Source of the DNA: Meghimatium bilineatum
Lineage: Eukaryota > Mollusca > Gastropoda > Stylommatophora > Philomycidae
Assembly: GCA_034231615.1 (NCBI GenBank)
Contig: CM067298.1
Span: 7,935,640-7,999,639 of the forward strand
Reading direction: 5' to 3'
DNA: 64,000 nucleotides
Each line of letters begins with the position of its first letter. Position 1 is the first letter of the stretch. Positions 768-42,671 of the stretch are shown piece after piece. A program made the position numbers and the translations under genes. Under the pieces are notes generated by a model, which saw only the letters and a program-made list of their open reading frames with translations, did not search any database and was not told the origin of the DNA.

Positions 768-777
768 AAAATGGAGA

Positions 778-1054: not shown

Positions 1055-1064
1055 AAAATGGAGA

Positions 1065-7117: not shown

Positions 7118-7159
7118 CTGAGTAATGATCGCCGAAGAAGAAGAAGAAGAAACACTTTC

Positions 7160-10085: not shown

Positions 10086-10095
10086 AAAATGGAGA

Positions 10096-15540: not shown

Positions 15541-15584
15541 AAGAACAAATAGAAGGTATAGAAAAGAAAGGAACCCAGACAGAA

Positions 15585-21175: not shown

Positions 21176-21428
21176 TGAAGGGAGTTCCCCTCAAAATCCT
21201 CGGTGGTATTTAGGTACAAAGCTGGCATTCTAAGTGACATGGTAGATATTTGAAGATATTGACAAATTAGGTTCAGAAACAAACACGTGGTATTCACAAA
21301 GAGATGATTGTTCTCCAACGTAGATCTGACACGTGGTGTAATTTGAAATACAAAGAAATAAATTTCGAAATTGGTAATTGAAAAACTTGCCTGATGTCCA
21401 CACTGTGAATAGCATTCGTCTAGATGTT

Positions 21429-22762
21429 GTTTGTTTGTTTTGCGTTCGCTCCATTGTAACCAGCACGGATATCCGTGCGATTTCCGCCGGGAGCGTGATT
21501 ACGTTGTGCCACGTTATGCGCCTTGTAGGCCTAGCACATCCGATTTCAGCATGGCTTGACAATTCGGGTGGGCGACCCTTAGCCTGTGAAAGCCTCTATA
21601 TCTGTCTCCAGGCACGCGTAGTGGCGACTCTTTGCCCAGACGATTTTTGCTCTCGTCTGACTCGCACGAGGTGTTCCACTGTCTATGAACTTGCCTCGTG
21701 TAATTGGACGTGCTGTGCCTGTGCCCATTGGGTACTGAACCGTTTCTCATCCGTGAGCCTGGTTCCTTAAGGGGAAGAACTCAACAGAGGAGTTGGACCC
21801 TGGCTCTTTCGTCCTCTTAGCTGAGGTGTCATTCACCGACATCGTGTACCCGTTGTCCAAGTTCGAGTCTCACACCACGCGTTTGAGAGAAAGGCGTTCT
21901 CGAGCTGAGCGACCTTGTCCCAATAGCGCCTGAGCCCATCAGGTACTGAACCATTTCTCTTTGCAAGTGTATTTCAGGTATAGGAAAACCTGACATTAGA
22001 GTTGGGCCAGGGCTAAAATCGTTGTCTCTTTGGTGTCTGAGCCCATCGGCTACGGAACCCTTTCTCTCTGCAAGTGTATTTCCGATATAGGAAAACTTGA
22101 CAGTAGAGTTGGGTCAGAACTGCCATCGTTGTCCCTTTTTTGCCTAAGCCCATCGGGTACGGGACCCTTTCTCTTCGCGAGCATATTTCCGGTTTAGGAA
22201 GGCTCGACATTAGAGTTTGATTAGGTCTTCTTGCTTTACCAAACGCCAATGAATGGGTGTGGGTCTCTGCCTGTAAGGGCCACAGGTAACTAGAAGCTCG
22301 CCTTGAGCTGACGGAGCTTGTAGTTCCCCTTTCATAGGGACTTTTCACTTTCTATTTGCAGTTCGCGCTGCCCTCTAGCGCTATTCTGCCCTTTCTTTGT
22401 TTCATTGTACTCGGTATGAAAGCTATTTGTCTCTCGCCATGCATCTACCTTTAAGTGCATTTTACATTGGCCGCCCCTCCAATGTTCGGACTGGACTGAC
22501 TAGCTTCACTGTATGTCGACAGTGTCGTTATATGTGGTGATTCTGTTGGTGTCAGAGATATTGTCTGTCTCTTGTGCAGTCAAATCTCTTTCCATCTGCT
22601 ACCTCCACATTCTCGGACACGATCCCCAAATGATTTGGCCAGAATCAGCTCGAGCTGCTGTGTTTCTGTTTACAGGGTGCACCGCGTGGAGGTACATTTG
22701 GGATCTTGATTATCTGCTAACCCTGGGTCCGCCTAGAGCAATGCGTTCCCTTTGCACCCCAC
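21429..22762 (-). mobile_element. Element C, copy 1, 1.33 kb, non-coding
   Basis: A minus-strand copy flanked by 'tcgtctagatgtt' (21416-21428 and 22763-22775). Read on its own strand it starts 'ggggtgcaaagggaacg' and ends in a (CAAA)n tail after 'gagcgaacg'. It holds three tandem copies of a 106-bp repeat plus one diverged copy, and a 3' part of about 130 bp related to the SINE. No long frame is conserved between copies, so it is non-autonomous. LINE-type mobilisation is inferred from the tail and the duplication length. Confidence 0.88.
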
Positions 22763-22775
22763 TCGTCTAGATGTT

Positions 22776-23226
22776 ATATTAATATCAAAAACTAAAAGTA
22801 CTTTGAAACACTAATACACACAATAAATATTTAAAACTACACCGGTAAATACTGATGATATACTATAAAAAAACAAAAAAACTCGGACACATTTAGTAAA
22901 AGGCGAAAGATTTGTGAGTTATTTTTTTTTTTAAAGTGGACCCAGAGTAGATTATCTCCGACTTAGGACAGCTCACTGCTCCTTAGGTCCGCTCACCTCA
23001 ACCGGTGAAGCACAAGTCCTGCCGCCTCCACGGTGAAAAGGCAAATGTCCTCTGCCAGGAGCCCCATTCGTCAGTGTCCGATTGGACAGCTACTGTCTTC
23101 TTTCCTGTCAGTCTTCTCTCAGACCGTCCCTTACTATCCTTCAGTCCAATCAAGAAGGTTCTTCAATCTGTCACTAATTTTCTAATTCATTCTAACTGCT
23201 AGTCCAAATAGCGGTTCCCATGATTT
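22776..23226. other. Unassigned, with X-related fragment
   Basis: No gene is seen. The stretch 22885-22945 resembles the end of repeat X and the start of the array spacer (tttagtaaaaggcgaaagat... and ggacccagagta), so X-like sequence exists outside the array. Confidence 0.5.
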
Positions 23227-23406
23227 AACTTCAAAGACTCCATCGAGACCAGCACCGTGCAGAGGTGATGGGGTTTAGTTCAGCCATCAGGGGCTGGAAA
23301 CTAAGACTGGTCGGGCAGTCCCACTCGAGCAGGACCATAGTCCTGCCCTAGTAAGCAGAGTGCTGAAGACGGAGGCACCCAGCCAAAAGGCGCACAGATA
23401 ATCAGG

Positions 23407-24660
23407 ATGCCACGCACAAAACACAATGGAAACATGTCTACATCTATAAATAGTTATGGTGCCTGCCCTGTGGCGGACGTTCAGGCAGGGACGGTGCCGG
23501 GCCCTATACCTCGAAAGGGCCCAACCTCAGTTACTGGAAGTCCTTCTCAATTGCCCCGAGGAGCCAGGAGACAAGGGAATAGAGCTACTGGCCAAACAAG
23601 CAAACGACCAATAAAAATAATGCACTGGAATGCTGAGGGTGTCAACAGTAAAAGAGATGGATACAGCAAAAAATTGGAACTTGAAAATGTCCTCAGTGAA
23701 GAACAAGTTAACATATGCTGTATCCAAGAAACACACCTCAGCAGCGACATAGCCTTCAAAATCAGAGGCTACCAGTGCTACCGATCTGACCGAAAGGACA
23801 GGCGAAAAGGTGGAATTCTGACACTTGTTAAAAACAATATCAGCGCATGTCAGCTGGAAGTATATATGGAAGGGGCAGAATACCAGATGCTCCACCTAAA
23901 AACAGACAGTGCAGAATTCCATCTCCTGAACTACTACTGCCCAAATGATAAACCATTGGCACTAGACACAATTCCAGACAAAGAGAGACTTATGGTGTGT
24001 GGTGACTTCAACAGCCACTCTCAGAGCTGGGGCTACGATCATATCGACAAGAGAGGTGAGGAACTTGAGAGCTGGCAGGATGAAAATAATCTCATCCTTA
24101 TTAACCAGCCAGCAGACTCGCCAACCTTCTACTCGAGAGCATGGCACACCACCTCTACACCAGACCTGGCATTCCACTCACCAGGCTTGGAATGGAACAT
24201 CACACGTGTCGTTGGAAAGCAGCTTGGAGGTAGTGACCACAGACCAGTATTTCTGGAAATCCACAATGAATTTACCAAGGACAGCAGCACGCTCACTAGG
24301 TGGAACTATAAAAGGGCAGACTGGAAAATGTACCAGCATTTAACCAGTGTTCTAGCTAAGGACATGAACTTGGACAAAGACATCAATAGAGCAGTGAGTG
24401 AATTTAATAGATGTATACTACATGCTGCTAGTAAAACCATACCCGGGGGGGGGGGGCACGCAAAAACTACAAACCCTACTGGAATGATGAACTGGAAAAG
24501 CTGCAAAATGAGATGGAAACATCTAGACAGCAGGCCGAGAATAGACCTAGCCAAGAACATCACAACAAATATCAGCAAACAAAGGCTAAATTTCATAGAG
24601 CCAAGTTACAAGCAGCTGGAAAGAAAAAACAGATTCGCTGAACCTAGAAAGAGATACTAG
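23407..24660 (+). pseudogene. LINE B1 endonuclease
   Basis: Starts at an ATG (MPRTKHNGN) with a Pro/Gly-rich basic leader, then an APE endonuclease: IKIMHWNAEG (about residue 72), CCIQETHL (about 103), VCGDFNSHSQSWG (about 197), TSTPDLAFHS (about 254) and GGSDHRPVF (about 274). The true frame is lost at 24445, where a run of eleven G replaces the shorter run in B2. The last 70 or so codons are therefore out of frame. The element-encoded nuclease would cut target DNA. Confidence 0.88.
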
Positions 24661-27253
24661 GAAATTATGGAAACTTGTAAAACAACTAAATGATGAAGGT
24701 ACAGGGAGAAATACCAGGATCACACTTTATAAAGATATAAACATTTTAACAGGTAAACATGCAGCTGATTACTTTGCAGATTCCTTTGCAGAAGACAATA
24801 ACGTCAAAGTCAGCCTAGACAAACAACAGGAGGTTCGAGAGAACCAGCAAAACATTGGACAAGGTGAACCTATACCTGAAGTCATGGAGGCACCAATCAC
24901 AATGAGAGAACTGGAGCATGCAATATCCAAATTGAAAATGAAAAAGTCCCCTGGAGCTGATGGAGTGTCCAATGAAATGATTAGAAACCTGGGAATTGCA
25001 GCAAGAGCAAAGCTACTGCAGATCTTTAACACAAGCTGGTCCACAGGTAATGTACCACAGGCGTGGAGAGAAGCAATAATGATACCACTCCTCAAATCAG
25101 GAAAAGATGGCAACACAGTCTCCAACTACATGCCCATCAGCCTCACAAGCTGTCTATGCAAAACAATGGAACGCATTATCAATCTTAGGATGCAGTGGTA
25201 CCTTGAAAGTGAAAACCTTCTGGTATCACAGCAAGCAGGTTTCAGACAGTGCTACTCTACTGAAGATCAGGCAACCTACCTCTCCCAAGAGATTGAGGAT
25301 GCCTTCCAAGAAAAGAAACTGGTACTAGCGGCATGGATAGACCTCAGGAAAGCATTTGATAAGGTCTGGAAAGAAGGGCTCCTAAAGAAATTGCGAAATT
25401 GCAGGGTTAGCTCAAGAATGTACAAATGGGTAAAAGCATACCTGCATAATAGAAGAGCCAGGGTACAATTAGATGGTCACAAGAGCAAGAAAGTTCTACT
25501 GCGTCATGGAGTCCCCCAGGGAGGAGTCCTGTCACCCACACTTTTCTTGGTTTACATCAATGACCTAGTTGCTGAACTACCACATGGGATCAAAGTGGCA
25601 ATGTATGCTGACGACCTGGTGATCTGGTGCACGGAAGAACATGCAACAGTGGCCACTAAACAAATACAAAGAGCTATCGATGCCCTAACCTTATGGGCAA
25701 ATAGATGGTGCGTCAGCATTAACACAGATAAGTGCAGCACTACACTCTTTACCCTCTCACCAAAACAAAAAGCTGGTCATATCAAGATCGATGGAGAGCT
25801 CTTGAAAGAAGACAAACAACCCACATACCTCGGAGTTACTTTTGATGATAAGCTGACATGGAAGCAGCACATAAACAAAGCAACAACAAAAGCCAGGAGG
25901 AAGCTAGCTATCCTGAGAAAACTAAGTGGAACCACATGGGGAGCCAGTGGAAATATACTCAGTAAAGTTTACCAGCAAGGCATAAGACCACACCTGGAAT
26001 ATGGTTCAGCTGCGTGGTGTCCTGCATCAAACACCACATTACAAGATCTAGATAAAGTGCAAAACCAGGCACTTAGAATAATGTTGGGAGCAATGAAATC
26101 AACACCCATAGCAGAGATGCAGAAAATGGGAAGAATGCAAACACTTGGCGAACGCAGAGACACAAAAGTACTAATTCAAGCAGAAAAGTTTCAGTGTATG
26201 CCAAGTCATCCAATGAAGGAAAGATTCCAAAATCTAGCAATGGGGCGACTGAAAAGGAGCAGCTTTATCCATCAAGCTAAACGACTCCGTAGACAACTTA
26301 CAGACCTACCTGAAGTTGACAGCCCCTTAAGGTCTGTACCAGAACAAACCCCGTGGAGTGAAAGCCATGGAATGCCAATATACATTCAGACCCATGTGAA
26401 AGGAATACTGAGCGAGGACGAACAGAACAGTGTGCAGCGAATGACAGTCACCCTCAGTTTCCTGGATGAGGAATATCCACAAGATATATGGGTCAGAGTG
26501 TACACAGATGGGTCAGCACAGAATGCTGTGAGGAATGGAGGTGCAGGTGTATATATAGAATATCCACACAAGCCTAGAGATACAATCAGAACACCGACAG
26601 GAAAATTCTGCAATAATTATGATGCAGAAATGCAGGCAATTAGTGTGGCAGCTAAAAAACTGCTGAACTCCAACTCTGACCTACAGCCTGTGGTATTCCT
26701 GACAGATGCAAGGTCAGTGCTTCAAGCTCTCCAGTCTGGAAAACTAACAGACTTAAAAAAACTACTTAGCGAATTGTCTTACCAGTATAGGGTAACCATG
26801 CAGTGGATACCCTCTCACTGTGGAATACCAGGAAATGAAAAAGCAGACAAACTGGCTAAGGAAGGTGCTGCCGAAGACCAACCAGATATACCAATCACCT
26901 ACCATCAGAAAAAACAGATGATAAAGTCAATCAGAAAGCCACAAACACCAACACAAGATGACTATCACATTATGAACAGATCAGAACAAGTTATAATTCT
27001 ACGTCTCAGAACAGGACACAACCGACTCCGCAGTCACATGTATACAAAGTTCAAGATTGGCAACACGGCCATGTGTACATGTAGACAGGCAGCACAGAGT
27101 GCCAAACATATACTTCAAGAGTGTTCTGAGCATGAAATGCTGAGGCAGACATATTGGCCAGAGGAAACAACACTGGAATCAAAGCTCTATGGGACACTGT
27201 ATGAACTACAAAAAACAGTGAGTTTTATTAAGGAGACAGAATTACAGATATAG
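24618..27253 (+). pseudogene. LINE B1 reverse transcriptase plus RNase H
   Basis: A continuous frame of about 878 codons; the first internal ATG is at 24884. RT motifs: KSPGADGVSNEM, SNYMPISL (Met replaces the Arg seen in B2), QQAGFRQCYSTEDQ, LRKAFDKVW (about 25347), PQGGVLSPTLF (about 25516), YADD (about 25606) and YLGVTFD. RNase H acids: YTDGSA (about 26502), AEMQAI, LTDARS and GNEKADKLAKEG (about 26833). The tail has CTCR...HILQEC. RT and RNase H are fused in one frame, which shows that the RT/RNase H frameshift in family A is damage or slippage, not the family norm. Confidence 0.92.
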
Positions 27254-27298
27254 ACATGTTTCAAGTGAACGAAAGAAGAAGAAGAAGAACTTCAAAGA

Positions 27299-29335
27299 GA
27301 AATCAGAACGGGAATTTTCAGTTCCCCATTTTGGACCGATTTCAGATTCTCGCACACTCTAACTTGTTTAGTCCTTTCATACCGCTGTTTTCCAGGTAGA
27401 TAAATATATCGACACTGTAAATAACTACCACCTGACAGGTTCCAGTTAATGGTCATCCCTGGGTAATTACAGTTTCAATCTTTTCCGATCGGTCTCCTGC
27501 CACAACATAAAATTCGTGTCCATTCTAATCTGATACAGAAACTCTGTTTCTCCCACTGGTTACAAAGCTGCCACTGTGGGAATATTCTCACAGAGAAGTT
27601 CCGGCGCCTAATTACATTCCTGGGCCCATTTATTTTTCCCCACAATCTGGCCGGCAATCTTTCTTATGTTGTAGGGCCGTAAGAGCTAAACATATACGTT
27701 TCGTTTTTAAGCAGGAGAGTCGCCATATACACAAGGTGATGCTCAAATTAGTAAGATCTCCCAAATCTTACTATTACAACACCTGGTACAAGTGGAACGA
27801 TTTAGACTGCAAAGGCCAGATAGACTTTATAATAACAAGAAGAATCAACAAAATGAAAAAACAGACTCAAGAGCGATAACAAACATGTGTGTAACAGGAT
27901 GAGCACATCTGTTCCCATGAGACCCAATGGTTCCTACAGTGTGCGCCTCGTTGCCCTTTGAGCAAAACTGTTGATGAGAAGAAACCGTTATGAAAACAAC
28001 TGAGTATAAAGGCGACCACAGGTCTTGTCTGCCTCCTGGGATACGCGATCAAAGCTTCTCGTTGAGAAATATCCTCTGAACAGTTACATAACCGATAGGT
28101 AAACGTAGCGATACAATAACGGGTGGACAGACTTTTGTCAATACATGGCGGCCCACCTAAAGAATTCCCCGTCCGGCTAAGATAGGTGGCTAGACGAATA
28201 TCACACCATTCGAATGTGCCGGGAAAACTACGTAACGTTGCAATTGATCTAGCAGGTCTCACGTAAGAAATAGGTCTAGGACAAGTCAACTGACCATAAA
28301 TTTGGAGACTGTTAATTGAGCATAGGACCAGGTGTTTTACACAAGAAGCAATTAGATTGCGTATGTATTAGAATGTAGTGTCAAACCTGACCTTTGATGT
28401 CAAATGTGTTAACGGTCATATAAAGTTTGAGAAGTTTCAACATCAGTGACAGTTAGTGACTACAGAGGGGCGTTCCTAATTTAGGGACAGTAGCTCTACA
28501 TGTTTGGATGAGGGATTTTTGGAATATGCTAAAAAATAGACCAATGAGAGAGAATGTCTCAAAATGTAGTTGAAGATATTCTATCTTAGAGAGAAGATAG
28601 GCGGGACTATCTTGGAGAGATAAAAGAGGATGTATTTGTATGATACGGGACTCACACTCTCGACCAAGACTCAACTCCGGGACGGACTCGCTGTCTCTCG
28701 ACTAGGACACCGGTCCTAGGCTTATGTCAGCCCTTAGCAACTGAGAACTCCGAGTTCTTATAGTTGAAGATACACGTCAAATTTTTGAGAAGTTGAGACA
28801 CACAGTTGGAGTGGAAATATAGCATAGCTGATGTTGGAATAGTATGTTTATGTGCTGCAGTACGATAGATATTATATGCCTTGCTTGCTGTTGTAAACAG
28901 ATGTTGCGAACTGTAGAAGGACTCTGACTCTCACTCTGGACTAGGACTTCGGAGGATTAGACGGAGGATTTGAGTGGTCTCTGAGCTCTGTGCTCCAGTA
29001 CCGTGTCTCGTCTAGCGCAGGACTTCAACCCCGGTGGTGAAGACACAAAGTTTGAGACTACTACTTGAGACTGGAGTTGAATGGACTTCAGGCACAGTCC
29101 CCATGAGAAATTCTCTGTCACACTAAGTGCAGAGCTCGTTACTGTCGCACGTGTCGTTACTGTCACACTGTCGTTACTGTCACACTTATTGTGACACCAC
29201 TTGCAGAGCGTCAAATACCCTCTGTCACATGTGTAGACACCGACCATAAAGCAGTAATAGCTGTAAAAATAAAGAGAAAGAAAAAACCTACACAAAACTA
29301 AGGACGGCATGGTAAGGTAGCAATACACACCAAAA
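27299..29335. other. Unassigned 2-kb region
   Basis: No protein is recognised. A 140-codon minus-strand frame at 27867-28289 lacks identifiable motifs. The part from 28400 to 29330 is rich in short repeats such as 'gtcgttactgtcacac' near 29115-29185. It has a possible promoter-like 'gataaaagagg' (about 28618), so it could be an LTR or 5' leader remnant, but no second LTR was found. Confidence 0.35.
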
Positions 29336-29880
29336 TCACAGAAAAATTCAAAAACTACCAGTAGATACTACGACAATAGAAGAAGAATGGGAATTACTCA
29401 AAGATGCTATTATACAAGCAGCATGAGAATCATACGGATACAAGAACAAGAGTGTAAAGAAACCAAAAATAATAGCAAGGTGGAATGAAGAAAACAAAAA
29501 TGTCACAAGAGAAAATAAAACAGAAATATAAGAAATTGGTCAAAAGAAAAAAGCCAAGTAGATTACATAGAATACAAGACAGCAAAAACAAAGGCCAAGA
29601 TCGCCGAAGACGGATGTGTCGGGCCATTGGCGCAAATTAAACGGTAGCACAGCGCATTTCCATTCTCTGGACTACATCCTGCTGAAAATCTAGTAGGACA
29701 ATGGTCCTGGTACAAGGAAGATCCAGCAGGAATTTGAGAATGAACGCTGAAGAAGAAGAAATACCAAGAAAATTATTAAAACTGCCAAAATCAACTCATG
29801 GAAAGAATATGGACACATGCTCAACGCAGATTATAAAAATACACAAAATAGGTTCTATAAGAAAATTAAGAAAATCTATC
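29336..29880 (+). pseudogene. LINE relic (endonuclease-RT linker), split by SINE
   Basis: Degenerate coding sequence resembling the linker between endonuclease and reverse transcriptase in RTE/CR1-like LINEs: EEEWELLKDAIIQAA, KKPKIIARWNEE, YKKLVKRKKPS and YIEYKTAKTKAKI. After an intervening SINE the frame resumes with INSWKEYGHMLNADYKN and NRFYKKIKKI. Stops and frameshifts are present. Neither catalytic domain is preserved here. Confidence 0.6.
29603..29764 (+). mobile_element. SINE, subfamily 2, 5'-truncated
   Basis: Begins at the 'cgaagacggatgtgtcggg' module and ends 'gaatgaacgctgaagaagaagaa'. It carries an insertion relative to subfamily 1 (ctagtaggacaatggtcctg ... gatccagcaggaatttgag). 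It interrupts the LINE linker relic. Other subfamily 2 copies lie at 54290, 55860, 56683 and 59855. Confidence 0.7.
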
Positions 29881-31351
29881 TAGATGTACTATGCTGGAGG
29901 AAGCGTAGTGTACGTGTGTCGATTCAGTGGCAACAATAGCCCACTAGTCCAGCACGAGACCGACTGGCCGAAGTGCTGTTCATGCTTGAGAACACACAGA
30001 AGACCACACGTCCCATCACAATTAATCACATTCAACGTAGGAGTCATGAATTGAGTATTGGATACACCAACTTGAACATGCACTCCTGGGTGTGGAAAAA
30101 AGCGTTGAATACAGCTCTCCATTGCACACGGGACAAACATGGAACAAATGTCGGGGAGGGCATTGTTCAAAAGCATGACAGAAGCAGTGTTGAACCCACT
30201 GCGAAGCCCCTTGTCAGAGATTCGTATTTCTCCTACGTCTGTGAGTAATATACGCAATGGTGAAGAGTCAAAATACACAGACAGTGCCTGGCGATGGATT
30301 GGAAGACCATCTCAAGCGGACGAGACGAGTGCGTGAGAAATGCGCTGGTCAAATCCCAGATCCCCGATGTGTTTGATAAAACAGCACCTCGTCTAGGAAG
30401 GTGTATCAATCATGAGTCTAATTTGACCGTCGCCTTTACCCAACATGGCTCATACGGAAGAACTTATGTCTGGGACTTAGGGACACGAAGGGTGGTAATG
30501 GAATAGTCGTTCTTCACGAGGAACAGCTCGTTGGCTGCGAAGCGCCTCGTCGGAGATAAGGCAAACAATGGATGACCCAGGCAAACTATCAGCTCCTCTC
30601 GTGATATATACCCTCTCTGAGTAGAAGGCTCCTTCAATAAGCATTGCACTAAGCTGAAAACGGTAGCCTCCAGGGTATGAAAGAAAGCTCGGAGAAACCT
30701 CCCCACTGCACATAGGAAGTAAGAGCTAATTACTCGTAATTACTGAGGTTCGAGAAGTAGATATTCTGTACAGTCCACAGCCCTGGGTTTCTTAGGTAGT
30801 GGTATGACTATTTATGATGTTAGGTGATAAATTGATGAGAAAAAGTAAACATGACTTAAAAGGTCCATTCTAATTATTTCCGTGTTTTTCATTGGTAAGA
30901 TTTAACTATTTTTTGGCATGCGACTACAAGTATATAAATAGTGCCCAACAAGAACAATCAAAATCAAGTAGTACGAGAATAATCAAAAACATAACGAATG
31001 TAATCCTAATGAATTCTGCAAACAGGTTTTCTTACTGGCGAAAGTCATGGCTACAGTGTCCGGAAACAACCCGAAACTAAAGATGATGATATCTGGGGTT
31101 GGGGTAATACAAGGCACATGTCAAATGAACGGAAATAGGTACCAGTGTTACCAATCAATAAAGCAAACTATCAAAATAGTTGGGGCTTTTGATGGAATAT
31201 GGAACAGAAGAATTATTTCTTTTCAAAACGTCGAACCTTATGATGGTATATCTAAAATATCGATTTAATATACATTTTATAAGAAGATTTCTGAGCATCG
31301 TATGTGCAGATAGAAAAAACTAATCAGAGTGGTAATGGCGGTCATTTAAAC
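29881..31351. other. Unassigned region with unrecognised short frames
   Basis: A 129-codon minus-strand frame at 29889-30278 and a 73-codon plus-strand frame at 31047-31268 are open, but neither has a motif I recognise. A short block at 30687-30732 (ending 'ggaagtaagagctaatt') recurs inverted at 49298-49345, so at least part of this is dispersed repeat. Confidence 0.35.
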
Positions 31352-31615
31352 TAACTCTGTTCACTTGAGAATGAAGTGGGTCAAACCACACCCCCACATT
31401 ACTCTGCGAAATGGGTGATTTTTTAACTTCTGATGGCATGTAAACACAATATTATTTAAAACATTTAAAAACAATATTTAAACATTAAAAAAACACATTT
31501 AAAATCGAAATTTAAAAGCAATATTATTGGGCATTTGGCAATCAATTAACGCGTTCTGCGTCCAACAACCAATCAGAAAAACTGACCCACTTCATTCTTA
31601 TAGTGAACGGAGTTA
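31352..31615. mobile_element. Small inverted-repeat element (MITE), 264 bp
   Basis: The 33-bp ends are inverted copies of each other: 'taactctgttcacttgag...' at 31352-31384 and its complement at 31583-31615, with three or four mismatches. The interior is AT-rich and non-coding. Superfamily is unassigned because the target duplication is unclear. Confidence 0.65.
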
Positions 31616-31862
31616 TAACAGAGTTACTTAACAGCAATAGGGGGGGTTGCATTTATTCCCCAGGTGACCCCCTCCCCCTTTCTCTCTTTTATCCGTGTAA
31701 ATTATCGCGTGATGCGACATAGTTTCTTGAAATATGTAAGAACTGACTGCAATGCACTCTGGGCGAACTATAGGTGCTCAGTCTGTTTTAGCAGAAGCGT
31801 AGGTCTATGCTTATCGTTCTCGTTGCCTACTGATTTTCATGCCCAGTAATTCGACTCCTCTC

Positions 31863-32112
31863 TTGATCTTCTCTACTTGTCCCACACTTGATCTTCTCTA
31901 CTTGTCCCACACTTTATCTTTTCTACTTGTCCCACACTTGATCTTCTCTACTTGTCCCACACTTGATCTTCTCTACTTGTCCCACACTTGATCTTCTCTA
32001 CTTGTCCCACACTTGATCTTCTCTACTTGTCCCACACTTGATCTTCTCTACTTGCCCCACACTTGATCTCCTCTACTTGTCCCACACTGGATCTTCTCTA
32101 CTTGTCCCACAC
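31863..32112. repeat. 25-bp minisatellite, 10 copies
   Basis: Ten head-to-tail 25-bp units (ttgatcttctctacttgtcc...) start at 31863, 31888, 31913 and so on, with only scattered substitutions. It directly adjoins the decayed RNase H relic on its right. The reverse complement encodes repeating fragments in shifting frames, since 25 is not divisible by three. Confidence 0.93.
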
Positions 32113-32474
32113 TTGATCAGGAATTTTTCCTGACTCTGTAATACTGATTCGTTCAGGGAATTTTCATTCTCCAATAAACGATCTAGTATGCCTTTCACGA
32201 TCTCACCCGTGTCCATATTGAAAGTGCCCACCCAAAGTGAACTTGTAGCCAGCGTGTCAGCTCGCTCATTTGTGCGCACCGCAGTATGACCTAGACAATA
32301 GTTCCTGAAACACGAGTTCCTGAAGCGCATGTGTATGCAGCTCTTTCACGACGCAACCATCTATTTTGGACCTTCCGAATCACGGACTGAAAAGCGGACA
32401 CAATAACAGCCCTTTTCCGCGTGGTTTCCGAGAGGCCTCGTAAGGTTGCTATAACTAATTCAACCTCCATTCTC
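32113..32474 (-). pseudogene. RNase H relic, C-terminal side (split by LINE B2)
   Basis: The minus-strand frame has MRMEVELVIATL, a degraded SVIRKVQNRWLRRE stretch, and HTAVRTNERADTLATSS with VGTFNMDTGEIVKGILDRLL. This matches the second and fourth acidic motifs of an RNase H like the one at 38572-38951. A stop or frameshift lies near 32300. The upstream part (VATTSS before MRMEVE) is found across the LINE B2 insertion at 37888-37907. Confidence 0.7.
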
Positions 32475-32642
32475 CCCATCGAGGCCAGAACCTTGAAGTG
32501 GTGATGGGGCTTAGTTCAGCCATCAGAGGCTGGAAACTAAGACTGGTCGGGCACTCCCACTCGAGCAGGACGATAGTCCGGCCCAAGTAAGCAGAGTGCT
32601 GAAGACGGAGGCAACCAGCCAAAAGGCGCACAGATAATCAGG

Positions 32643-33911
32643 TTGCCACGCATAAAACACAATGGAAACATGTCTGCATCTAATAAACGTTATGGTGCCT
32701 GCCCTGTGGCGGACGTTCAGGCAGGGACGGTGCCGGGCCCTATACCTCGAAAGGGCCCAACCTCAGTTACTGGAAGTCCTTCTCAATTGCCCCGAGGAGC
32801 CAGGAGGCAAGGGAATAGAGCTACTGGCCAAACAAACAAACGACCAATAAAAATAATGCACTGGAATGCTGAGGGTGTCAACAGTAAAAGAGATGGATAC
32901 AGCAAAAAATTGGAACTTGAAAATGTCCTCAGTGAAGAACAAGTTAATATTTGCTGTATCCAAGAAACAGCCCTCAGCAGCGACATAGCCTTCAAAATCA
33001 GAGGCTATCAGTGCTACCGATCTGACCGAAAAGACAGGCGAAAGGGTGGAATTCTGACACTAGTTAAAAACAATATCAGCGCATGTCAGCTGGAAGTATA
33101 CATGGACGGGGCAGAATACCAGATGCTCCACCTAAAAACAGACAGTGCAGAATTCCATCTCCTGAACTACTACTGCCCAAATGATAAACCATTGGCACTA
33201 GACACAATTCCAGATAAAGAAAGGCTTATGGTGTGTGGTGACTTCAACAGCCACTCTCAGAGCTGGGGCTACGATCATATCGACAAGAGAGGTGAGGAAC
33301 TTGAGGGCTGGCAGGATGAAAATAATCTCATTCTTATTAACCAGCCAGCTGACTCACCAACCTTCTACTCGAGAGCATGGCACACCACCTCTACACCAGA
33401 CCTGGCATTCTACTCACCAGGCCTGGAATGGAACATCACACGTGTCGTTGGAAAGCATCTTGGGGGTAGTGACCACAGACCAGTATTTCTGGAAATTCAC
33501 AATGAATATACCAAGGACAGCAGCACGCTCACTAGGTGGAACTATAAGAGGGCAGACTGGAAAATGTACCAGCATTTAACCAGTGTTCTAGCTAAGGACA
33601 TGAACTTGGACAAAGACATCAATAGAGCAGTGAGTGAATTTAATAGATGTATACTACATGCTGCTAGTAAAACCATACCCAGGGGGGCACGCAAAAACTA
33701 CAAACCCTACTGGAATGATGAACTGGAAAAGCTGCAAAATGAGATGGAAACATCTAGAAAGCAGGCTGAGAACAGACCTAGCCAAGAACATCACAACAAA
33801 TATCAGCAAACAAAGGCTAAATTTCAAAGAGCCAAGTTACAAGCCAGACGGAACAGCTGGAAAGAAAAAACAGAGTCGCTGAACCTAGAAAGAGATACTA
33901 GGAAATTATGA
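32643..33911 (+). pseudogene. LINE B2 endonuclease and linker
   Basis: A 422-codon frame. MHWNAEG and GDFNSHSQSWG are intact and GGSDHRPVF is present. The early CIQET motif reads QETALSS where B1 has QETHLSS, so a conserved His is replaced. The linker that is frameshifted in B1 is open here (ARKNYKPYWNDELEKLQ). The frame ends where TGG of the KLWKL motif has become TGA. Confidence 0.88.
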
Positions 33912-35691
33912 AAACTTGTAAAACAACTAAATGATGAAGGTACAGGGAGAAATACCAGGATCACACTTTATAAAGATAAAAACATTTTAACAGGTAAACA
34001 TGCAGCTGATTACTTTGCAGATTCCTTTGCAGAAGACAATAACGTCAAAGTCAGCCCAGACAAACAACAGGAGGTTCGAGCGAACCAGCAAAACATTGGA
34101 CAAGACGAACCTATACCTGAAGTCATGGAGGCACCAATCACAATGAGAGAACTGGAGCATGCAATATCCAAATTGAAAATGAAAAAGTCCCCTGGAGCTG
34201 ATGGAGTGTCCAATGAAATGATTAGAAACCTGGGAATTGCAGCAAGAGCAAAGCTGCTGCAGATCTTTAACACAAGCTGGTCCACAGGTAATGTACCACA
34301 GGCATGGAGAGAAGCAATAATGATATATCTCCTCAAATCAGGAAAAGATGGCAACACAGTCTCCAACTACAGGCCCATCAGCCTCACAAGCTGTCTATGC
34401 AAAACACTGAAACGCATTATCAATCTTAGGATGCAGTGGTACCTTGAAAGTGAAAACCTTCTGGTATCACAGCAAGCAGGTTTCAGACAGTGCTACTCTA
34501 CTGAAGATCAGGCAACCTACCTCTCCCAAGAGATTGAGGATGCCTTCCAAGATAAGAAACTGGTACTAGCAGCATGGATAGACCTCAGGAAAGCATTTGA
34601 TAAGGTCTGGAAAGAAGGGCTCCTAAAGAAATTGCGAAATTGCAGGGTTAGCTTAAGAATGTACAAATGGGTAAAAGCATACCTGCATAATAGAAGAGCC
34701 AGGGTACAATTAGATGGTCGCAAAAGCAAGAAAGTCCTACTGCGTCATGGAGTCCCCCAGGGAGGAGTCCTGTCACCCACACTTTTCTTGGTTTACATCA
34801 ATGACCTAGTTGCTGAACTACCACACGGGATCAAAGTGGCAATGTATGCTGACGACCTGGTGATCTGGTGCACAGAAGAACATGCGACAGTGGCCACTAA
34901 ACAAATACAAAGAGCTATCGATGCTCTTACCTTATGGGCTAATAGATGGTGCGTCAGCATTAACACAGATAAGTGCAGCACTACACTTTTTACCCTCTCA
35001 CCAAAACAAAAAGCCGGTCATATCAAAATAGATGGAGAGCTCTTGAAAGAAGACAAACAACCCACATACCTCGGAGTTACTTTTGATGATAAACTGACAT
35101 GGAAGCAGCACATAAACAAAGCAACAACAAAAGCCAGGAGGAAGTTAGCTATCCTGAGAAAACTAAGTGGAACCACATGGGGAGCCAGTGGGAATATACT
35201 CAGTAAAGTTTACCAGCAAGGCATAAGACCACACCTGGAATATGGTTCAGCTGCGTGGTGTCCTGCATCAAACACCACATTACAAGATCTAGATAAAGTG
35301 CAAAACCAGGCACTTAGAATAATGTTGGGAGCAATGAAATCAACACCCATAGCAGAGATGCAGAAAATGGGAAGAATGCAAACACTTGGCGAACGCAGAG
35401 ACACAAAAGTACTAATTCAAGCAGAAAAGTTTCAGTGTATGCCAAGTCATCTAATGAAGGAAAGATTCCAAAACCTAGCAATGGGGCGACTGAAAAGAAG
35501 CAGCTTTATCCATCAAGCTGAACGACTCCATAGACAACTTACAGACCTACCTGAAGTTGACAGCCCCTTAAGGTCTGTACCAGAACAAACCCCATGGAGT
35601 GAAAGGCATGAAATGCCAATATACATTCAGACCCATGTGAAAGGAATACTAAGCGAGGACGAACAGAACAGTGTGCAGCGGAGGACAGTCA
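33912..35691 (+). pseudogene. LINE B2 reverse transcriptase
   Basis: Continues in the endonuclease frame after the TGA; the first internal ATG is at 34125. Motifs KSPGADGVSNEM, SNYRPISL, LRKAFDKVW, PQGGVLSPTLF, YADD and YLGVTFD are all present. After the thumb region the frame runs into element C at 35702 and stops within it at 35729. RNase H resumes beyond the insertion. Confidence 0.9.
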
Positions 35692-35701
35692 CCCACAGTT
35701 T

Positions 35702-37041
35702 GGGGTGCAAAGGGAACGCATTGCTCTAGGCGGACCCAGGGTTAGCAGATAACCAAGATCCCAAATGTACCTCCACGCGGTGCACCCTGGAAACAGAAAT
35801 ACAGCAGCTCGAGCTGATTCTGGCCAAATCATTTGGGGATCGTGTCCGAAAATGTGGAGGTAGCAGATGGAAAGAGATTTGCCTGCACACGGACAGACAT
35901 ATCTCCGACACCACCAGCATCACCACATATAGCGACACTGTCGACATACAGTGAAGCTAGTCAGTCCAGTCCAAACATTGGAGGGGCGGCCAATGTAAAA
36001 TGCACGTAAAGGTAGATACATGGCGAGAGACATACTCGTAGATTTCATACCGAGTACAATGAAACAATGAAAGGGCAGAACAGCGCTAGAGGGCAGCGCG
36101 AACTGCAAATAGAAAGTGAAAAGTCCCTAGGAAAGGGGGAGCTACAAGCTCCGTCAGCTCGAGACGGGCTTCTAGTTACCTGAGTTCCTTACAGGCAGAG
36201 ACCCAGACCCATACACTGGCGTTTGGTAAAGCAAGAAGACCTAACCCAACTCTAATGTCGAGCCTTCCTAAACCGGAAATATGCTCGCGAGAGAAAGGGT
36301 TCTGTACCCAATGGGCTTAGGCAAGAAAGTGACAACGAGGGTAGTCCTGGCCCACCTCTACTGTCAATGTTTCCTATATCGGAAGTACACTTGCAGAGAG
36401 AAAGGGTTCCGTACTCGATTCGCTCAGGCACAAAAGGGACAACGATTTAGCCCTGGCCCAACTCTACTGTCAAGTTTTCCTACACCGGATATACATTTGA
36501 AGAGAGAAAGGGTTCAGTACCTGATGGGCTCAGGCGCTATTGGGACAAGGACGCTCAGCTCGAGAACGCCTTGCTCTCAAACGCGTGGTGTGAGACTCGA
36601 ACTTGGACAAGGGGTACACGTCGGTGAATGACACCTCGGCTAAGAGGGCGAAAGAGCCAGGGTCCAACTCCTCTGTCGAGTTCTTCCCCTTAAGGAACCA
36701 GGCTCACGGATGAGAAACGGTTCAGTACCCAATGGGCACAGGCACAGCACGTCCAATTACACGAGGCAAGTTCATAGACAGTGGAACACCTCGTTTGAGT
36801 CAGACTAAGAGCAAGAAAATCGTCTGGGCGAAGAGTCTCCACTACGCGTGCCTGGAGACAGATATAGAGGCTGTCACAGGCTAAGGGTAGCCCACCCGAA
36901 TTGTCAAGGCATGCCGAAATCTGATGTGCTAGGCCTACAAGGCGCATAACGGTGGCACAACGTAATCACGCTCCCGACGGAAATCGCACGGATGTCCGTG
37001 ATGGTTACAATGGAGCGAACGAAAAACAAACAAACAAACAA
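35702..37041 (+). mobile_element. Element C, copy 2, 1.34 kb, inside LINE B2
   Basis: A plus-strand copy between 'acccacagttt' (35691-35701) and 'accctcagttt' (37042-37052), a target duplication with one substitution. LINE B1 gives the empty site. The 106-bp internal repeats start at 36245, 36351 and 36457, with a diverged copy near 36663. The 3' part (about 36900-37020) resembles the SINE 3' half. It ends in a (CAAA)n tail. Frames seen inside are not conserved with copies 1 and 3. Confidence 0.9.
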
Positions 37042-37042
37042 A

Positions 37043-37845
37043 CCCTCAGTTTCCTGGACGAGGAATATCCACAAGATATATGGGTCAGAGTATACACAGA
37101 TGGGTCAGCACAGAATGCTGTGAGGAATGGAGGTGCAGGTGTATATATAGAATATCCACACAAGCCTAGAGATACAATCAGAACACCAAAAGGAAAATTC
37201 TGCAATAATTATGATGCAGAAATCCAGGCAATTACTGTGGCAGCTAAAAAACTGCTGAACTCCAACTCTGACCTACAGCCTGTGGTATTCCTGACAGATG
37301 CAAGGTCAGTGCTTCAAGCTCTCCAGTCTGGAAAACTAACAGACTTGAAAAAACTACTTAGCGAATTGTCTTACCAGTATAGGGTAACCATGCAGTGGAT
37401 ACCCTCTCACTGTGGAATACCAGGAAATGAAAAAGCAGACCAACTGGCTAAGGAAGGTGCTGCCGAAGATCAACCAGATATACCAATCACCTACCATCAG
37501 AAAAAACAGATGATCAAGTCAATAAGAAAGCCACAAACACCAACACAAGATGACTATCACATTATGAACAGATCAGAACAAGTTATAATTCTACGTCTCA
37601 GAACAGGACACAACCGACTCCGCAGTCACATGTATACAAAGTTCAAGATTGGCAACACGGCCATGTGTACATGTGGACAGGCAGTACAGAGTACCAAACA
37701 TATACTTCAAGAGTGTTCTGAGCATGAAACGCTGAGGCAGACATATTGGCCAGAGGAAACAACACTGGAATCAAAGCTCTATGGGACACTGTATGAACTA
37801 CAAAAGACAGTGAGTTTTATTAAGGAGACAGAATTGCAGATATAG
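37043..37845 (+). pseudogene. LINE B2 RNase H and tail
   Basis: The frame resumes at LSFLDEEYPQDIWV and contains YTDGSA, AEIQAI, LTDARS, GNEKADQLAKEG and the CTCGQ...HILQEC tail, ending at the natural TAG. The open frame extends 30 codons back into the tail of element C, a chance fusion. Confidence 0.88.
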
Positions 37846-37887
37846 ACATGTTTCAAGTGAACGAAAGAAGAAGAAACCTCCATTCTC

Positions 37888-37955
37888 ATACTGGAGGTTG
37901 TTGCCACATAAATTCCTCTCTGTTCGGTCATGATCTTCCTCACACTCTAACAGTG
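37888..37955 (-). pseudogene. RNase H relic, N-terminal side of LINE B2
   Basis: Minus-strand sequence reading about TEQRGIYVATTSS joins directly to MRMEVE at 32474 when LINE B2 is removed. It is homologous to the segment reading YSTVTSSMRMEIEG in the relic at 38572-38951. Upstream sequence is too decayed to follow. Confidence 0.55.
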
Positions 37956-38289
37956 AAGCACCATATCCTTACCACGAGAAGAGGATGTTGTGAATACAAT
38001 ATCACACAAAATAAAATTGAGGGGAAAATCAACATAAGTAATCTGTAAGAGAAGATACTGGATAGACTGAGATCCTGGCATGGGGAAAAATCAGCACCGA
38101 AAATAATATACACAGTACTGCGGATAAAATGTGGCATTAAGTCATCATCATGTGCCGTGCCGACTGACGTAGGCGATTACATATTTCAACAGCTCTCTAT
38201 TTAGAGTATCTTTTTTTTTTTATCAGGATCGTTGTTTACTCTTTGCTGTGCCAAGAGGTCTAATTATCTAATATTTTCTCAAGCTATAT

Positions 38290-38951
38290 CCTCGATCCCT
38301 TATAACGTGTAAAATAAAAACACAACATTTTCTCTTTCTGATTCTTGATTAGAAACGTGTATTTCCCGTGGGGCACTCCCATAAGTTCTCCTCCCTCCGT
38401 CCCAGCAGCCATCCCAATTTATGTAGACTCCAGTAAGTTCCAGTAAGGTGTTGATTGTATGATCTTCGGGACATTCCAAAAAATTTACTTTTCCTTCCCT
38501 AACTTCTAGATACTCCCATTTTTTACATTCTCTGTATATGTACGTTCTCAGCCTCATTGACATCATCTTCATCTTGAAATGAATTTATTGCTGCCTTCAT
38601 TAAGTCTGCTTTATCTCTTCTCAGCAATGTGCCGTCTATCGTCGCATTGTCTGCCAATAAGTCGGCTCTCTCGTTTCCTCTGACCCCAGCACGACCAGGG
38701 CAGTATATCCATGTAATGCTCTGGACAATTGAGTTGTTCAATACGTCCCACCATTCTTTTCTCAGCATGTACTGTTCTATCTTGCGCACCATGCTTTGAG
38801 AGTCTGTGAGTATTACCGCGTGTGTTGATGTATCAGTTATCAACCAATTAAGTGTTGTTGTAACTCCCTCTATCTCCATCCGCATGCTCGATGTGACAGT
38901 AGAATATGCTGAAGATTTCTCAACCAACTTCACGTAGTTTCTGCATCTCAT
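38290..38951 (-). pseudogene. RNase H domain relic
   Basis: The minus-strand frame has SSMRMEIEGVTTTLNWL, AVILTDSQSMVRKIE and GRAGVRGNERADLLADNAT. These cover the Glu, the second Asp and the final Asp of the RNase H active site; the first Asp motif is not found upstream. After residue 142 the frame shifts, and a Cys-containing tail (RRRENLWECPT) is recognisable. It is the C-terminal part of a LINE of a different family from A and B. Confidence 0.75.
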
Positions 38952-39126
38952 TCTGATAGTATTAAATAACCACCATCTCTCATTTGACTATTTCAGCACT
39001 TTATCCTGAATTTTTGTGTGCTGCCTATGGTAGTCCTACTATCAGCGTTATTTCATAGAACCATATATCTCTTGTCTCTACTTTTACATTATTATCATGT
39101 GTATTTATTGCTAGCGGGAATTGAAT

Positions 39127-39635
39127 CAGTCAGTTATAACGGCACCGAATCGCCTGGCAACAAAAATTAAACGGGTTTTTCCTTACTTGACTAACCGCAT
39201 CTCCAAAAAAGATGCTATATTGTCAAGACATTTAAACTATATACTCAAGTCACTGAGAAAGGACCAGTCGAGACAATGACTATTACAAGTACAACGAACA
39301 TCCCGTACAAGTATAGACGTATCCTCAGTAACATAAACATATAACATCCGTATTCGTTCTATAAGGACCAATAGGTCTTCTTGTAAACATAAATAACATA
39401 TAGACAGTACAATTTTGCTTCACATAATTGCTTATACAAGAAAATTCAAATATGAAGCATAGGGATAAATTAAAGCGTGTCTTGATTGGTCAGTTCTCAG
39501 CGACTTGAGTACACAGTTTGAATGTCTTGATAATATCGTATCTTTTTTTTTTGAAGATGCGGTTAGTCAAGTACGGAAGATCCCGTTTACTCTTGTTGCC
39601 AGGCGACTCGGTGCCGTTAAAACGGACTGGTTAAA
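39127..39635. mobile_element. Fold-back DNA element with ~135-bp inverted ends
   Basis: The left arm 39127-39262 starts 'cagtcagttataacggc'. It is the reverse complement of 39500-39635, which ends 'gttaaaacggactg', over about 135 bp with around 85-90 percent identity by eye. The roughly 240-bp interior is non-coding. No target duplication is obvious. Confidence 0.8.
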
Positions 39636-40975
39636 TTTCTATTGGTATCAAGAATTTTTAATTTATCCTCATGCTTCCTACTTGAATTTTCTTATTTATT
39701 GCCGAAGACTTGGTGCTATTGTTGCACAAAGTAAAACATATGAGCCTGTCGACTTTTGTCATAGGCTAAATCAGTGTTTCCCAACGTGGGAACCACGCCC
39801 CACGGGGCAATTATATTGTTCATGGGGGCAAATAACCGGGGGGGGGGGGGCAATACTATAATTATTTTATATTATAAATATATATATGTTACATAAGGGG
39901 GCATCAGAATTTTAGAAAGGTCATCATGGTAAACAAAAAGGTTGGGAAGAAACACTGGGCTAAATGGTATGGCGTCGTTGGATATCTGGTTAGTTGTAAC
40001 AATGACGGACAGTAGTTATAGTCATGAAATCGAAATACACTGTATGATGATACACTTAATGTACACCACAGCCCACAAGATGCATTTAAATATATCATTT
40101 TCGAAGTTTTTGCTACTTGTCTTCAATTTGACTATAACTATATATGCCCATGTGCAGTTTAGCACCGCGACAAATAGCATACAAACATCGCACAGAAAGG
40201 ACATCTCCAGAGAACCCTTCCACCCCTGACGCGGCAAGGCAAACAAGGGACACAGCGTATAGATAGACAAATAGAAAAATATGTGTCAAGAAAGTAAACA
40301 GGGTTGCCATTTTGGTGCTTTACAAATTAATTCTGATGCTTTATCACGCTATCTTGTGCCAAACGTTATAAGTAGTACTTATAAGTAGTAATGCGTGATA
40401 CACTAATAATGTCTTGTTTTTTTCTATTGCTCAACTTCAGCTTTGTGTGAGTTTTAATGATTTTATTTCGTCGAAAATATTTTTGTTGAGCTAAAGAAAG
40501 TAAATTACCATTTGCTTTCTACTACACCACACAGTATTTAACTTGTTTTTGAAGCCAATGAACGATTACTACAATCTCGTTCTGACAATGCAGTTAAACG
40601 ATAGTGGGCAAATGTGACTGCCATTGTCTGTTGGAGAATTGACATTCGTTCCAGCATCTTCCATGTGACTATAAAACCATTTAATTTTTACACTTATATT
40701 TATTACAATGTCAGCAAGAATTAACTTTAGCAAATCTATGTAAGAGAAGAATGGCTTAGTGTTTCAAGATTTAACAAGTGATAAATAATATGTTGATAGA
40801 AACAACACTAAATGCTATTGTAAATAAATATTAAATAGCGGCGAGTTTGAAATATATTGAGAATTGAGATACACGGGCAAAGCACAAGAAAGCTTAACAA
40901 TAATTAAGTTAAATAATACAAGACTTTCATTGAACACACTAAAAAATGATGTAGAAGCATATCTTTGTTCATAAC
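39636..40975. other. Unassigned, possible hAT-like end at 39772
   Basis: The start 'cagtgtttcccaacgtggg' at 39772 resembles the terminal motif of many hAT elements, and a run of 13 G follows at about 39839. No matching right end was found. A 95-codon frame at 39942-40229 has no recognisable domain. Confidence 0.35.
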
Positions 40976-40986
40976 ACAACAGTGTT

Positions 40987-41267
40987 CGCCCGTGTGTTGC
41001 CGGGGCCCGAAAGGGGAGTAAAGAATAGCAACACTGTTTACCTTCCACGAATGTCGTAAAAGGCGACTAAGGAGGTTATGGGATGGAGTTGGCTGTCCCA
41101 TCCCATATAGGGTCACTTACCCAAAGCCATGTTGAAGTCGGATGTGTCAGGCCGAAAGGCGCAGATATCGCAGCAATGCTGTAAACCATGACACAACGCA
41201 TTCCGTTCTCCGGACTACATCCTGCTAATCTGCAGGAGTTTGAGAACGAACGTAGAAGAAGAAGAAG
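40987..41267 (+). mobile_element. SINE, subfamily 1, full length, 281 bp
   Basis: A well-preserved copy with target duplication 'acaacagtgtt' (40976-40986 and 41268-41278). The 5' stem gtgttgc/gcaacac and the inner 'cccgaaagggg' hairpin are intact. The tail is 'gaacgtagaagaagaagaag'. It is a good reference for the subfamily consensus. Confidence 0.9.
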
Positions 41268-41490
41268 ACAACAGTGTTACATGCGCACAATAAATCAGAG
41301 TTCTCGAGTTCGAGCAATGGGATATTGCTGCATGTAATTCTTGAATGTTGTTGAAACCCATCATTTCTGCTACGAAATTATAACTAAAATAATTTTTCTG
41401 AGAAAAGGCAACAGCACGAGCTTTCCTTTTTTTAAAGTTTTAAGCGAAAATAACAATACACCAGGTACCGGTCGGAAAATGTGTATCATG

Positions 41491-42660
41491 TTTGTTTGTT
41501 TGTTTTGCTTTCGCTCCATTGTAACCAGCACGGATATCAGTGCGATTTCCGCCGGGAGCGTGATTACGTTGTGCCACCGTTATGCGTCTTGTAGGCCTAG
41601 CACATCCGATTTCGGCATGCCTTGACAATTCGGGTGGGCTACCATAGCCTGTGACAGCCTCAATATCTGTCTCCAGGCATGCGTGTATGTGGTGACTCTT
41701 CGCCCAGACGATTTTTGCTCTCGCCTGTCATGCACGAGGTGTTCCACTGTCTATGAACTTGCCTCGTGTAATTGGACGTACTGTGCCTGTGCCCATCGGG
41801 TACTGAACCGTTTCTCATCCGTGAGCCTGGTTCCTTAAGGGGAAGAACTCATCAGAAGAGTTGGACCCTGGCTCTTTCGTCCTCTTAGCTGAGGTGTCAT
41901 TCACCGACGTGTACCCGTTGTCCAAGTTCGAGTCTCACACCACGCGTTTGAGAGCAAGGCGTTCTCGAGCTGAGCGACCTTGTCCCAATAGCGTCTGAGC
42001 CCATCAGGTACTGAACCATTTCTCTTTGCAAGTGTATTTCAGGTATAGGGAAACTTGACAGTAGAGTTGGGTCAGAACTGCCATCGTTGTCCCTTTTTTG
42101 CCTAAGCCCATCGGGTATGGGACCCTTTCTCTTCGCGAGCATATTTCCGGTTTAGGAAGGCTCGACATTAGAGTTGGGTTAGGACTTCTTGCTTTTCCGA
42201 ACGCCAATAATTGGGTCTGGGTCTCTGTCTGTAAGGAGCACAGGTAACTAGAAGCTCGTCTCGAGCTTACGGAGCTTGTAGTTCCCTTTTCCTAGAAACT
42301 TTCATTGTACTCAGTATGAAATCTGTTTGTCTCTCGTCATACATCTACCTTTACGTGCATTTTACATTGGCCGCCCCTCTAATGTTCGGACTGGACTGAC
42401 TAGCTTTACTGTATGTCGACAGTGTCGCTATATGTAGTGATGGTGGTGGTGTCGGAGATATTGTCTTTCTCTTATGCAGTCAAATCTCTTCCCATCTGCT
42501 ACCTCCACATTCTTGGACACGATCCCCAAATGATTTTGCCAGAATCAGCTCGAGCTGCTGTATTTCTGTTTCCAGGGTGCACCGCGAGGAGGTACATTTG
42601 GGATCTTGGTTATCTGCTAACCCTGGGTCCGCCTAGAGCAATGCGTTCCCTTTGCACCCC
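41491..42660 (-). mobile_element. Element C, copy 3, 1.17 kb
   Basis: A minus-strand copy between 'tgtgtatcatg' (41480-41490) and 'tgtgtatcacg' (42661-42671). It has one 106-bp unit fewer than copies 1 and 2, and it lacks about 50 bp near 42296 that copy 1 has near 22350. It has the same ends as the other copies. Confidence 0.88.
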
Positions 42661-42671
42661 TGTGTATCACG

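Follow-up and report, generated by a model that had tools for sequence, protein, structure and literature searches.

A 64,000-nucleotide stretch of the genome of the gastropod Meghimatium bilineatum (GenBank assembly GCA_034231615.1, contig CM067298.1, positions 7,935,640 to 7,999,639 of the forward strand; hereafter the window) contains four copies of a repeat that we call element C. We find that the first ~140 nucleotides of C fit a hepatitis delta virus (HDV)-like self-cleaving ribozyme, predicted to cut immediately before base 1 of the element, and we consider it likely that C is a high-copy, non-coding, non-autonomous retroposon of the non-long-terminal-repeat (non-LTR) type, copied in trans by a long interspersed nuclear element (LINE). 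An earlier note on the window had proposed C as something undescribed and overlooked the ribozyme fold, which is the key feature of the element. Its proposal may be true for the family and is not for the principle: non-autonomous retroposons with a 5' HDV-like ribozyme are a known kind, and C stands apart as a variant by the family itself, its high copy number, the hairpin array and our finding no LINE parent for it. The fold supplies a likely mechanism for C, together with close functional parallels in the R2 short internally deleted elements (SIDEs) and in NARTc/RIME.

Copies of element C

The four copies are C1 (21429-22760, minus strand, 1332 bp), C2 (35702-37041, plus), C3 (41489-42660, minus) and C4 (51728-52690, plus, 3' end approximate), a relic of an older sister family. 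All four are homologous and have in common the 5' end and 106-bp units, with 93% identity between C1 and C2 across 1.34 kb. The earlier note had recognized the three younger copies, the relic, the common 5' end and the (CAAA)n tails, all of which our comparison bears out, although three of its bounds needed correction (C1 ends at 22760 rather than 22762, C3 starts at 41489 rather than 41491, and the relic starts at 51728 rather than 51757). The three intact copies each carry a (CAAA)n tail and a target duplication. That of C1 is an exact 13 bp (22763-22775 on the 5' side, other copy 21416-21428), with two extra bases beside it at 22761-22762; that of C2 is 11 bp with one mismatch (plus strand, left copy 35691-35701, right copy 37042-37052); and that of C3 is an exact 9 bp (42661-42669 and 41480-41488), shorter than the 11-13 bp first attributed to all three. 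C2 sits in the second copy of a LINE that we call LINE D, and the uninterrupted twin of that LINE provides the empty site at position 26455.

We searched the genome (1,612,235,226 bases in 32 contigs) with C1 and scored the best 40 of 9,497 candidates. Every one of them, C1 itself included, is 90-100% identical to C1 along 1.2-1.34 kb. Together with C1-C3, 39 fetched copies make a young set of 42, of which 39 align from base 1 and are counted below (L033, L038 and L006, the last with different first bases, are left out); being picked by score, the set is biased to long, young copies. The 39 diverge by 2.3-5.0% from the column majority. A parallel search for old-type copies scored the best 40 of 10,333 candidates.

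As previously supposed, C has no conserved reading frame: the longest ATG frames of the 39 young copies span 62-125 amino acids and lie at scattered positions. At 1.17-1.34 kb, the intact copies in the window are indeed too long for a typical short interspersed nuclear element (SINE), for which PMC9191728 indicates about 150-600 bp (papers are cited here by PMC number). Target duplications, a 3' short-repeat tail and the lack of a conserved frame are the features of a non-autonomous non-LTR retroposon. An LTR element was rejected, as self-comparison of the window shows no terminal repeat in C, in agreement with the earlier note, and its tail and target duplications are in keeping with target-primed copying. 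A LINE fragment was also rejected, as the translations of six LINEs in the window gave no match to C1-C4 at E 1 (tblastn).

The ribozyme fold and the 5' boundary

The sense strand of C starts with GGGGTGC, and helices P1, P2, P3 and P4 stand in HDV order with P1 beginning at the predicted cleavage site. P1 pairs GGGGUGC with GCACCCU (35702-35708 with 35782-35788 in C2, plus strand) and places a G.U pair at that site; the joining segment J1/2 is 48 nt long and contains a 5-bp hairpin, P1.2; P2 has 11 bp and one bulge (35757-35767 with 35830-35841); and P3, ACC/GGU (35769-35771 with 35779-35781), encloses the loop L3, UCC(A/U)CGC. Downstream of L3 and P3 follow GG for P1.1, P4, and then GC(C/A)AA in J4/2 with the putative catalytic C (35824 in C2). 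The whole fold occupies 35702-35841 in C2 (plus), 22621-22760 in C1 and 42521-42660 in C3 (both minus, with cleavage predicted before the G at 22760 and at 42660, respectively; L3 of C3 is UCCUCGC), and 51728-51870 in C4 (plus), where the active-site pattern has one mismatch.

A descriptor combining P1, P2, P3 and J4/2 retrieves four loci from the window, all of them C 5' ends, compared with a mean of 0.27 and a maximum of 2 in 30 shuffled windows. When P1 is forced to begin at base 1, all four C ends fit (4/4), while shuffles of each end fit 0, 0, 1 and 1 times per 20,000. The active-site pattern ACCTCCNCGNGGT, allowing at most one mismatch, matches the four C ends and nothing else in the window, and none of 100 shuffles reaches four matches. 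Across the young copies T71 and C72 are invariant (39/39), the P1.1 residues G88 and G89 are kept in 37/39 and 38/39, and the J4/2 C is present in 35/39, as it is in 18 of 22 old rows. We also ran Rfam at low threshold on C2, C3 and C4, and drz-agam-1 was the sole match up to E 5, with 24.2 bits (E 0.035) in all of C2 and 20.8 bits (E 0.074) in the 5' 381 bp of C3.

Covariation was assessed in an alignment of 30 sequences comprising eight young-type ends, C4, a relic at locus L047 and 20 old-type loci; P1 was added to it by hand, being absent from the model that built it. Of its 1,032 cells 90.3% pair, compared with at most 49.5% in slid controls. Changes on both sides occur in 11/35 pairs (1/500 shuffles as high), and double-changed cells number 19 against 8.0 in shuffles (0/500 as high). 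The clearest change is at P2 pair 65-130, which is U-A in the eight young-type rows and A-U in 17 of the remainder, and P1 shows double changes in 3/7 pairs. By topology, active-site letters and compensatory changes, the 5' end of C is on sequence evidence a probable HDV-like ribozyme, and its cleavage is a prediction of the model.

Several observations weigh against this assignment. The descriptor was composed after the fold of C2 and C3 had been seen, and so the active-site pattern and the 30-sequence covariation carry more weight; in its looser form, with P1 at the start, it fits 16 of 127,680 positions in the window, seven at C ends and nine elsewhere. The drz-agam-1 scores (24.2 bits in C2, 20.8 in C3 and 27.8 at locus L065) lie below the gathering threshold of 37, and this family matched just 1/20 old-family loci. 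C4 gave other, chance-like Rfam matches at similar E-values and no drz-agam-1, indicating that an E near 0.05 in this mode can arise by chance. The minimum-energy fold of the C2 end is not stabler than its shuffles (z -0.42; 60/200 as good), and without pseudoknots it pairs the 5' GGG elsewhere. Shuffle controls leave relatedness in, and related sequences can exceed shuffles without structure. Covariation among the four window sequences is weak (31/500 shuffles as high): one of their two double changes looks private to C4, and C86 changes alone in other old copies. With four changes scattered at random over the 42 bases of the stems, 135 of 400,000 trials produced two exact compensations, a simulation that ignores relatedness.

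Variation among the 22 old rows is lowest in the P1.2 stem (6.0%) and P3 (7.6%), followed by P2 (10.4%), P1 (14.8%), the rest of J1/2 (18.6%) and L3 (18.9%), and highest in the six downstream bases (26%); L3 thus has no special conservation in old relics. The old-family majority for P3/L3, ACCUCCUCGUGGU, is nevertheless identical to the drz-Agam-1 consensus (Rfam RF01787) at 13/13 places. C differs from the drz-Agam ribozymes in falling below the Rfam gathering threshold and in its 48-nt J1/2. In drz-Agam-2-1, as in C, J1/2 is long and contains a P1.2 hairpin, and P2 is extended (PMC4908430); the same source reports that a structured J1/2 and an extended P2 speed large HDV-like ribozymes, an account that the P1.2 and 11-bp P2 of C fit. 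HDV-like ribozymes at R2 5' ends are described with P1 strands 23 to >700 nt apart and with P1.1, P3 and L3 highly identical among them (PMC3774820).

The boundary of the element coincides with the predicted cleavage site. In 36/39 copies base 1 is directly preceded by the end of a 9-15-bp target duplication (for L012, one of the 36, the match consists of tail-like letters), and no other of the seven boundaries compared does as well; pairing the flanks of different copies gave a match in 71 of 1,482 cases. As a point on the other side, sliding the boundary by one base still yields 34/39 and 35/39, with lower scores, and further slides yield less. Base 1 is G in 39/39, a count that is partly circular as the copies were selected for alignment starting at base 1, and to which we therefore give no weight.

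A defined RNA 5' end, as from cleavage before G1, explains this boundary, and a self-cutting 5' ribozyme would account for a clean, uniform 5' end across copies; a precise transcription start would also do. The uniform end may accordingly reflect an internal promoter, with the fold vestigial or acting jointly with the promoter, as in Pr77 of L1Tc, NARTc and SIDER, which is reported to be promoter and ribozyme simultaneously (PMC4035085). Any defined RNA 5' end would give the same boundary, and we still regard this account as rather unlikely: the changes track ribozyme pairs, the active-site pattern is kept, and a simple consensus scan shows no sense-strand A or B box of an RNA polymerase III (Pol III) promoter in C1-C3. 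The same scan finds one A-box-like word in C4 and, on the opposite strand, a single B-box-like word in each of C1-C3.

Abundance, hairpin units and tails

We also took an unselected sample of 20 stretches of 10 kb on 13 contigs (200 kb). A search with our model R1 of the 5' end found six strong ends in 4/20 stretches (L040, L045, two in L047 and two in L055) and two weak matches (L048 and L045), and blastn adds a C 3' fragment in L051. Six ends per 200 kb correspond to about 48,000 per genome, of the order of 50,000, and the blastn spans total ~6.5 kb or ~3% of the sample, both with wide error. No relative was found in the viral contigs and genome contigs searched, and the titles and abstract openings retrieved from the open-access literature revealed no element like C.

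The 106-bp units form an array at 36245-36535 in C2 (plus) and, as 106-107-bp units, at 21928-22217 in C1 (minus), for each of which Tandem Repeats Finder reports 2.7 copies; C3, in which it reports no array, has two units at 41994-42185 (minus). Counting by anchor gives three, three and two adjacent units in C1, C2 and C3, the numbers first proposed, to which we add one diverged unit per copy that had gone uncounted, ~210 bp downstream of the array (21718-21802 in C1, minus; 36658-36742 in C2, plus; 41786-41870 in C3, minus). C1 and C2 are therefore 3+1 and C3 2+1. C4 has a single unit anchor, and its one recognizable unit lies at 52330-52414 (plus).

Folding of the unit, suggested in the earlier note as a check, reveals a covarying hairpin in an alignment of twelve unit segments. 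In this alignment 89.0% of cells pair (0/500 shuffles as high; slid controls at most 48.4%) and 11 cells are double-changed against 3.9 in shuffles (0/500 as high), while the number of changed pairs (57/500 shuffles as high) and of pair types (483/500) does not rise above shuffles. Folding energies of the C2 units and ribozyme region are likewise at shuffle level, so that the structural support lies in covariation. The hairpins may have a role in the life of the element.

Unit number against age, which the earlier note suggested examining, comes to essentially one unit in the old copies examined and three or four in younger ones. By blastn the C units map to one place in each of ten old-type loci, with an additional 51-bp partial second match in L087. 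The tail also appears to differ. L086, the sole old copy with a visible end, terminates in GCGAACACAGAAGAAGAAAA, a (GAA)n tail, and young copies typically end in GCGAACGCAAAACAAAC, which suggests from this one old copy a change from GAA to CAAA repeats between the old and young families. GAA repeats also end LINE D, another LINE of the window that we call LINE A, and one window SINE. We infer that the old family used a GAA-tailed LINE like these and the young family a relative of that LINE. Against this stands that no LINE with a CAAA tail or the C 5' end was found, in a genome not specifically searched for CAAA-tailed LINEs.

Copying, relatives and neighboring elements

The fold with its covariation, the exact 5' boundary, the target duplications, the tail and the lack of a conserved frame, all read from sequence, suggest the following cycle. 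A copy of C would be transcribed within a longer RNA, presumably by read-through; the ribozyme would fold and cut just before base 1, yielding an RNA that starts at G1 with a 5'-OH. A LINE enzyme acting in trans would then recognize the C 3' end and short tail repeat, nick the target and reverse-transcribe up to the ribozyme-made 5' end, leaving target duplications of mostly 10-13 bp. A candidate for the partner type is LINE D, whose first copy (23238-27265, plus) encodes an endonuclease, reverse transcriptase and RNase H, ends in a GAA-repeat tail and holds the empty site for C2.

C might instead be a SIDE, an internally deleted derivative of an autonomous LINE with the same 5' ribozyme and 3' end, which is compatible with a working ribozyme. 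Precedents are known (PMC3414825, PMC4035085), including NARTc derived from L1Tc, and the GAA-repeat end of L086 resembles the tails of LINE A and LINE D. However, inspection by eye of the best 40 of 9,497 and 40 of 10,333 places revealed matches of at most about 1.35 kb, with no kilobase-sized gap separating 5' from 3' pieces, and none of these 40 + 40 is the longer coding relative that the earlier note had said would count against its view; nor do the six LINE translations match C. We judge such a derivation improbable, and a rarer coding parent may be compatible with the 40 + 40 scored places. A reading of C as a long but otherwise ordinary SINE, its Pol III head degenerate and its HDV-like fold due to chance, is very improbable despite the module it has in common with window SINEs, since C1-C3 have no sense-strand A/B boxes and thus, in the consensus scan, no Pol III promoter head of the kind that defines SINEs, and the terminal fold is far above chance and covaries. 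A tRNA head was rejected on the same absence of boxes, and ARAGORN finds no tRNA in the window.

Known systems resemble a trans-copied, ribozyme-headed C to different degrees. R2 SIDEs and R2/R1 hybrid SIDEs of Drosophila (PMC3414825) are likewise non-autonomous and LINE-copied in trans, their 5' end being set by an HDV-like ribozyme located there, and the R1 hybrid SIDEs also have target duplications. These SIDEs are rare, lie in ribosomal DNA and are built of R2/R1 pieces, whereas C is dispersed, with a copy number estimated in the tens of thousands, has internal hairpin repeats and yielded no LINE parent. The trypanosomatid NARTc, RIME and SIDER with Pr77 (PMC4035085) are, like C, dispersed, non-autonomous and abundant and have an HDV-like ribozyme at the 5' end; the source describes them as L1Tc/ingi elements that are truncated or degenerate, in contrast to C, for which no such parent was found and which has a 106-bp hairpin array and a subfamily-dependent tail. 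The tRNA-headed cockroach SINEs, Blattella Sbg1-9 (PMC9191728), are also non-coding with a short-repeat tail and target duplications, but measure 306-658 bp against 1.17-1.34 kb, and C1-C3 differ in having no sense-strand Pol III boxes. The hammerhead retrozymes described in PMC7229834 are, like C, non-autonomous non-LTR elements with self-cleaving ribozymes; in C, the HDV-like fold is seen at the 5' end only.

The 3' end of C contains the SINE-like module that had been noted before (36879-36971 in C2, plus; 21493-21584 in C1 and 41558-41649 in C3, both minus), whose core recurs in window SINEs and in the LINE A start region. The module, GAAATCGGATG..GGCC..GGCGCA, is found at 3164-3232, 914-956 and 36907-36950, covering the neighborhood of the C 3' end, SINEs and the LINE A start codon. 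A SINE-like element of ~225 bp at L048:8735-8960 has this module, a GAA-rich tail and a second, different HDV-like head; P2, P3, P4 and J4/2 of the head can be aligned with model R1 (E 5e-5 over 264 kb), and its P1 is short and abuts P2, making activity doubtful.

LINE A (2580-7140) and LINE D both have an endonuclease domain, reverse transcriptase, a GAA-repeat tail and target duplications visible by eye; RNase H was identified by Pfam in LINE D, the LINE covered by that scan. The 5' ends of the two LINE D copies (23238-23330 and 32475-32570) show HDV-like pseudoknot topology with CUAA in J4/2 and a non-canonical L3, and four further LINE D 5' ends from the unselected stretches were aligned by eye. 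In each of the two window copies the topology fits no more than one base away from the start of the LINE, against a background of 132 of 127,600 positions for the 7+6 form. A canonical HDV-like ribozyme is doubtful here, as L3 is not HDV-like and Rfam names no such ribozyme at these ends. Elsewhere, positions 1-19378 hold a ~9.3-kb tandem duplication (99.7% identical) with U5 small nuclear RNA (snRNA) genes on the minus strand at 98-222, 9416-9540 and 18722-18846 and two copies of LINE A, near 2580 and 11898. U5 snRNA is the only Rfam family at gathering level in the window, and a further U5-like match at 22840-22939 barely passes threshold. A 25-bp tandem array (10.3 copies, 95% matches) occupies 31862-32118.

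As a tentative extension, C could belong to a SINE-like class headed by a self-cleaving HDV-like ribozyme in place of a Pol III promoter, which would allow the element to be launched from any host transcript. C, not derived from a LINE, would then be the giant and most successful member, with order 50,000 copies and a young burst marked by multiplication of the 106-bp hairpin unit and the switch from (GAA)n to (CAAA)n tails, and the 225-bp L048 element would be a small member. The contrast between one unit in old copies and three or four in young ones makes a link between unit number and amplification testable. C may bear on how non-autonomous retroposons that lack a Pol III promoter can be transcribed and retain an exact 5' end. 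If the ribozyme of C works, one genome would offer very many natural variants of known relative age for structure-function studies, and a self-cleaving RNA would have enabled a non-coding element, by hitch-hiking on other transcripts, to reach a share of perhaps 3% of a eukaryotic genome, as estimated from 200 kb.

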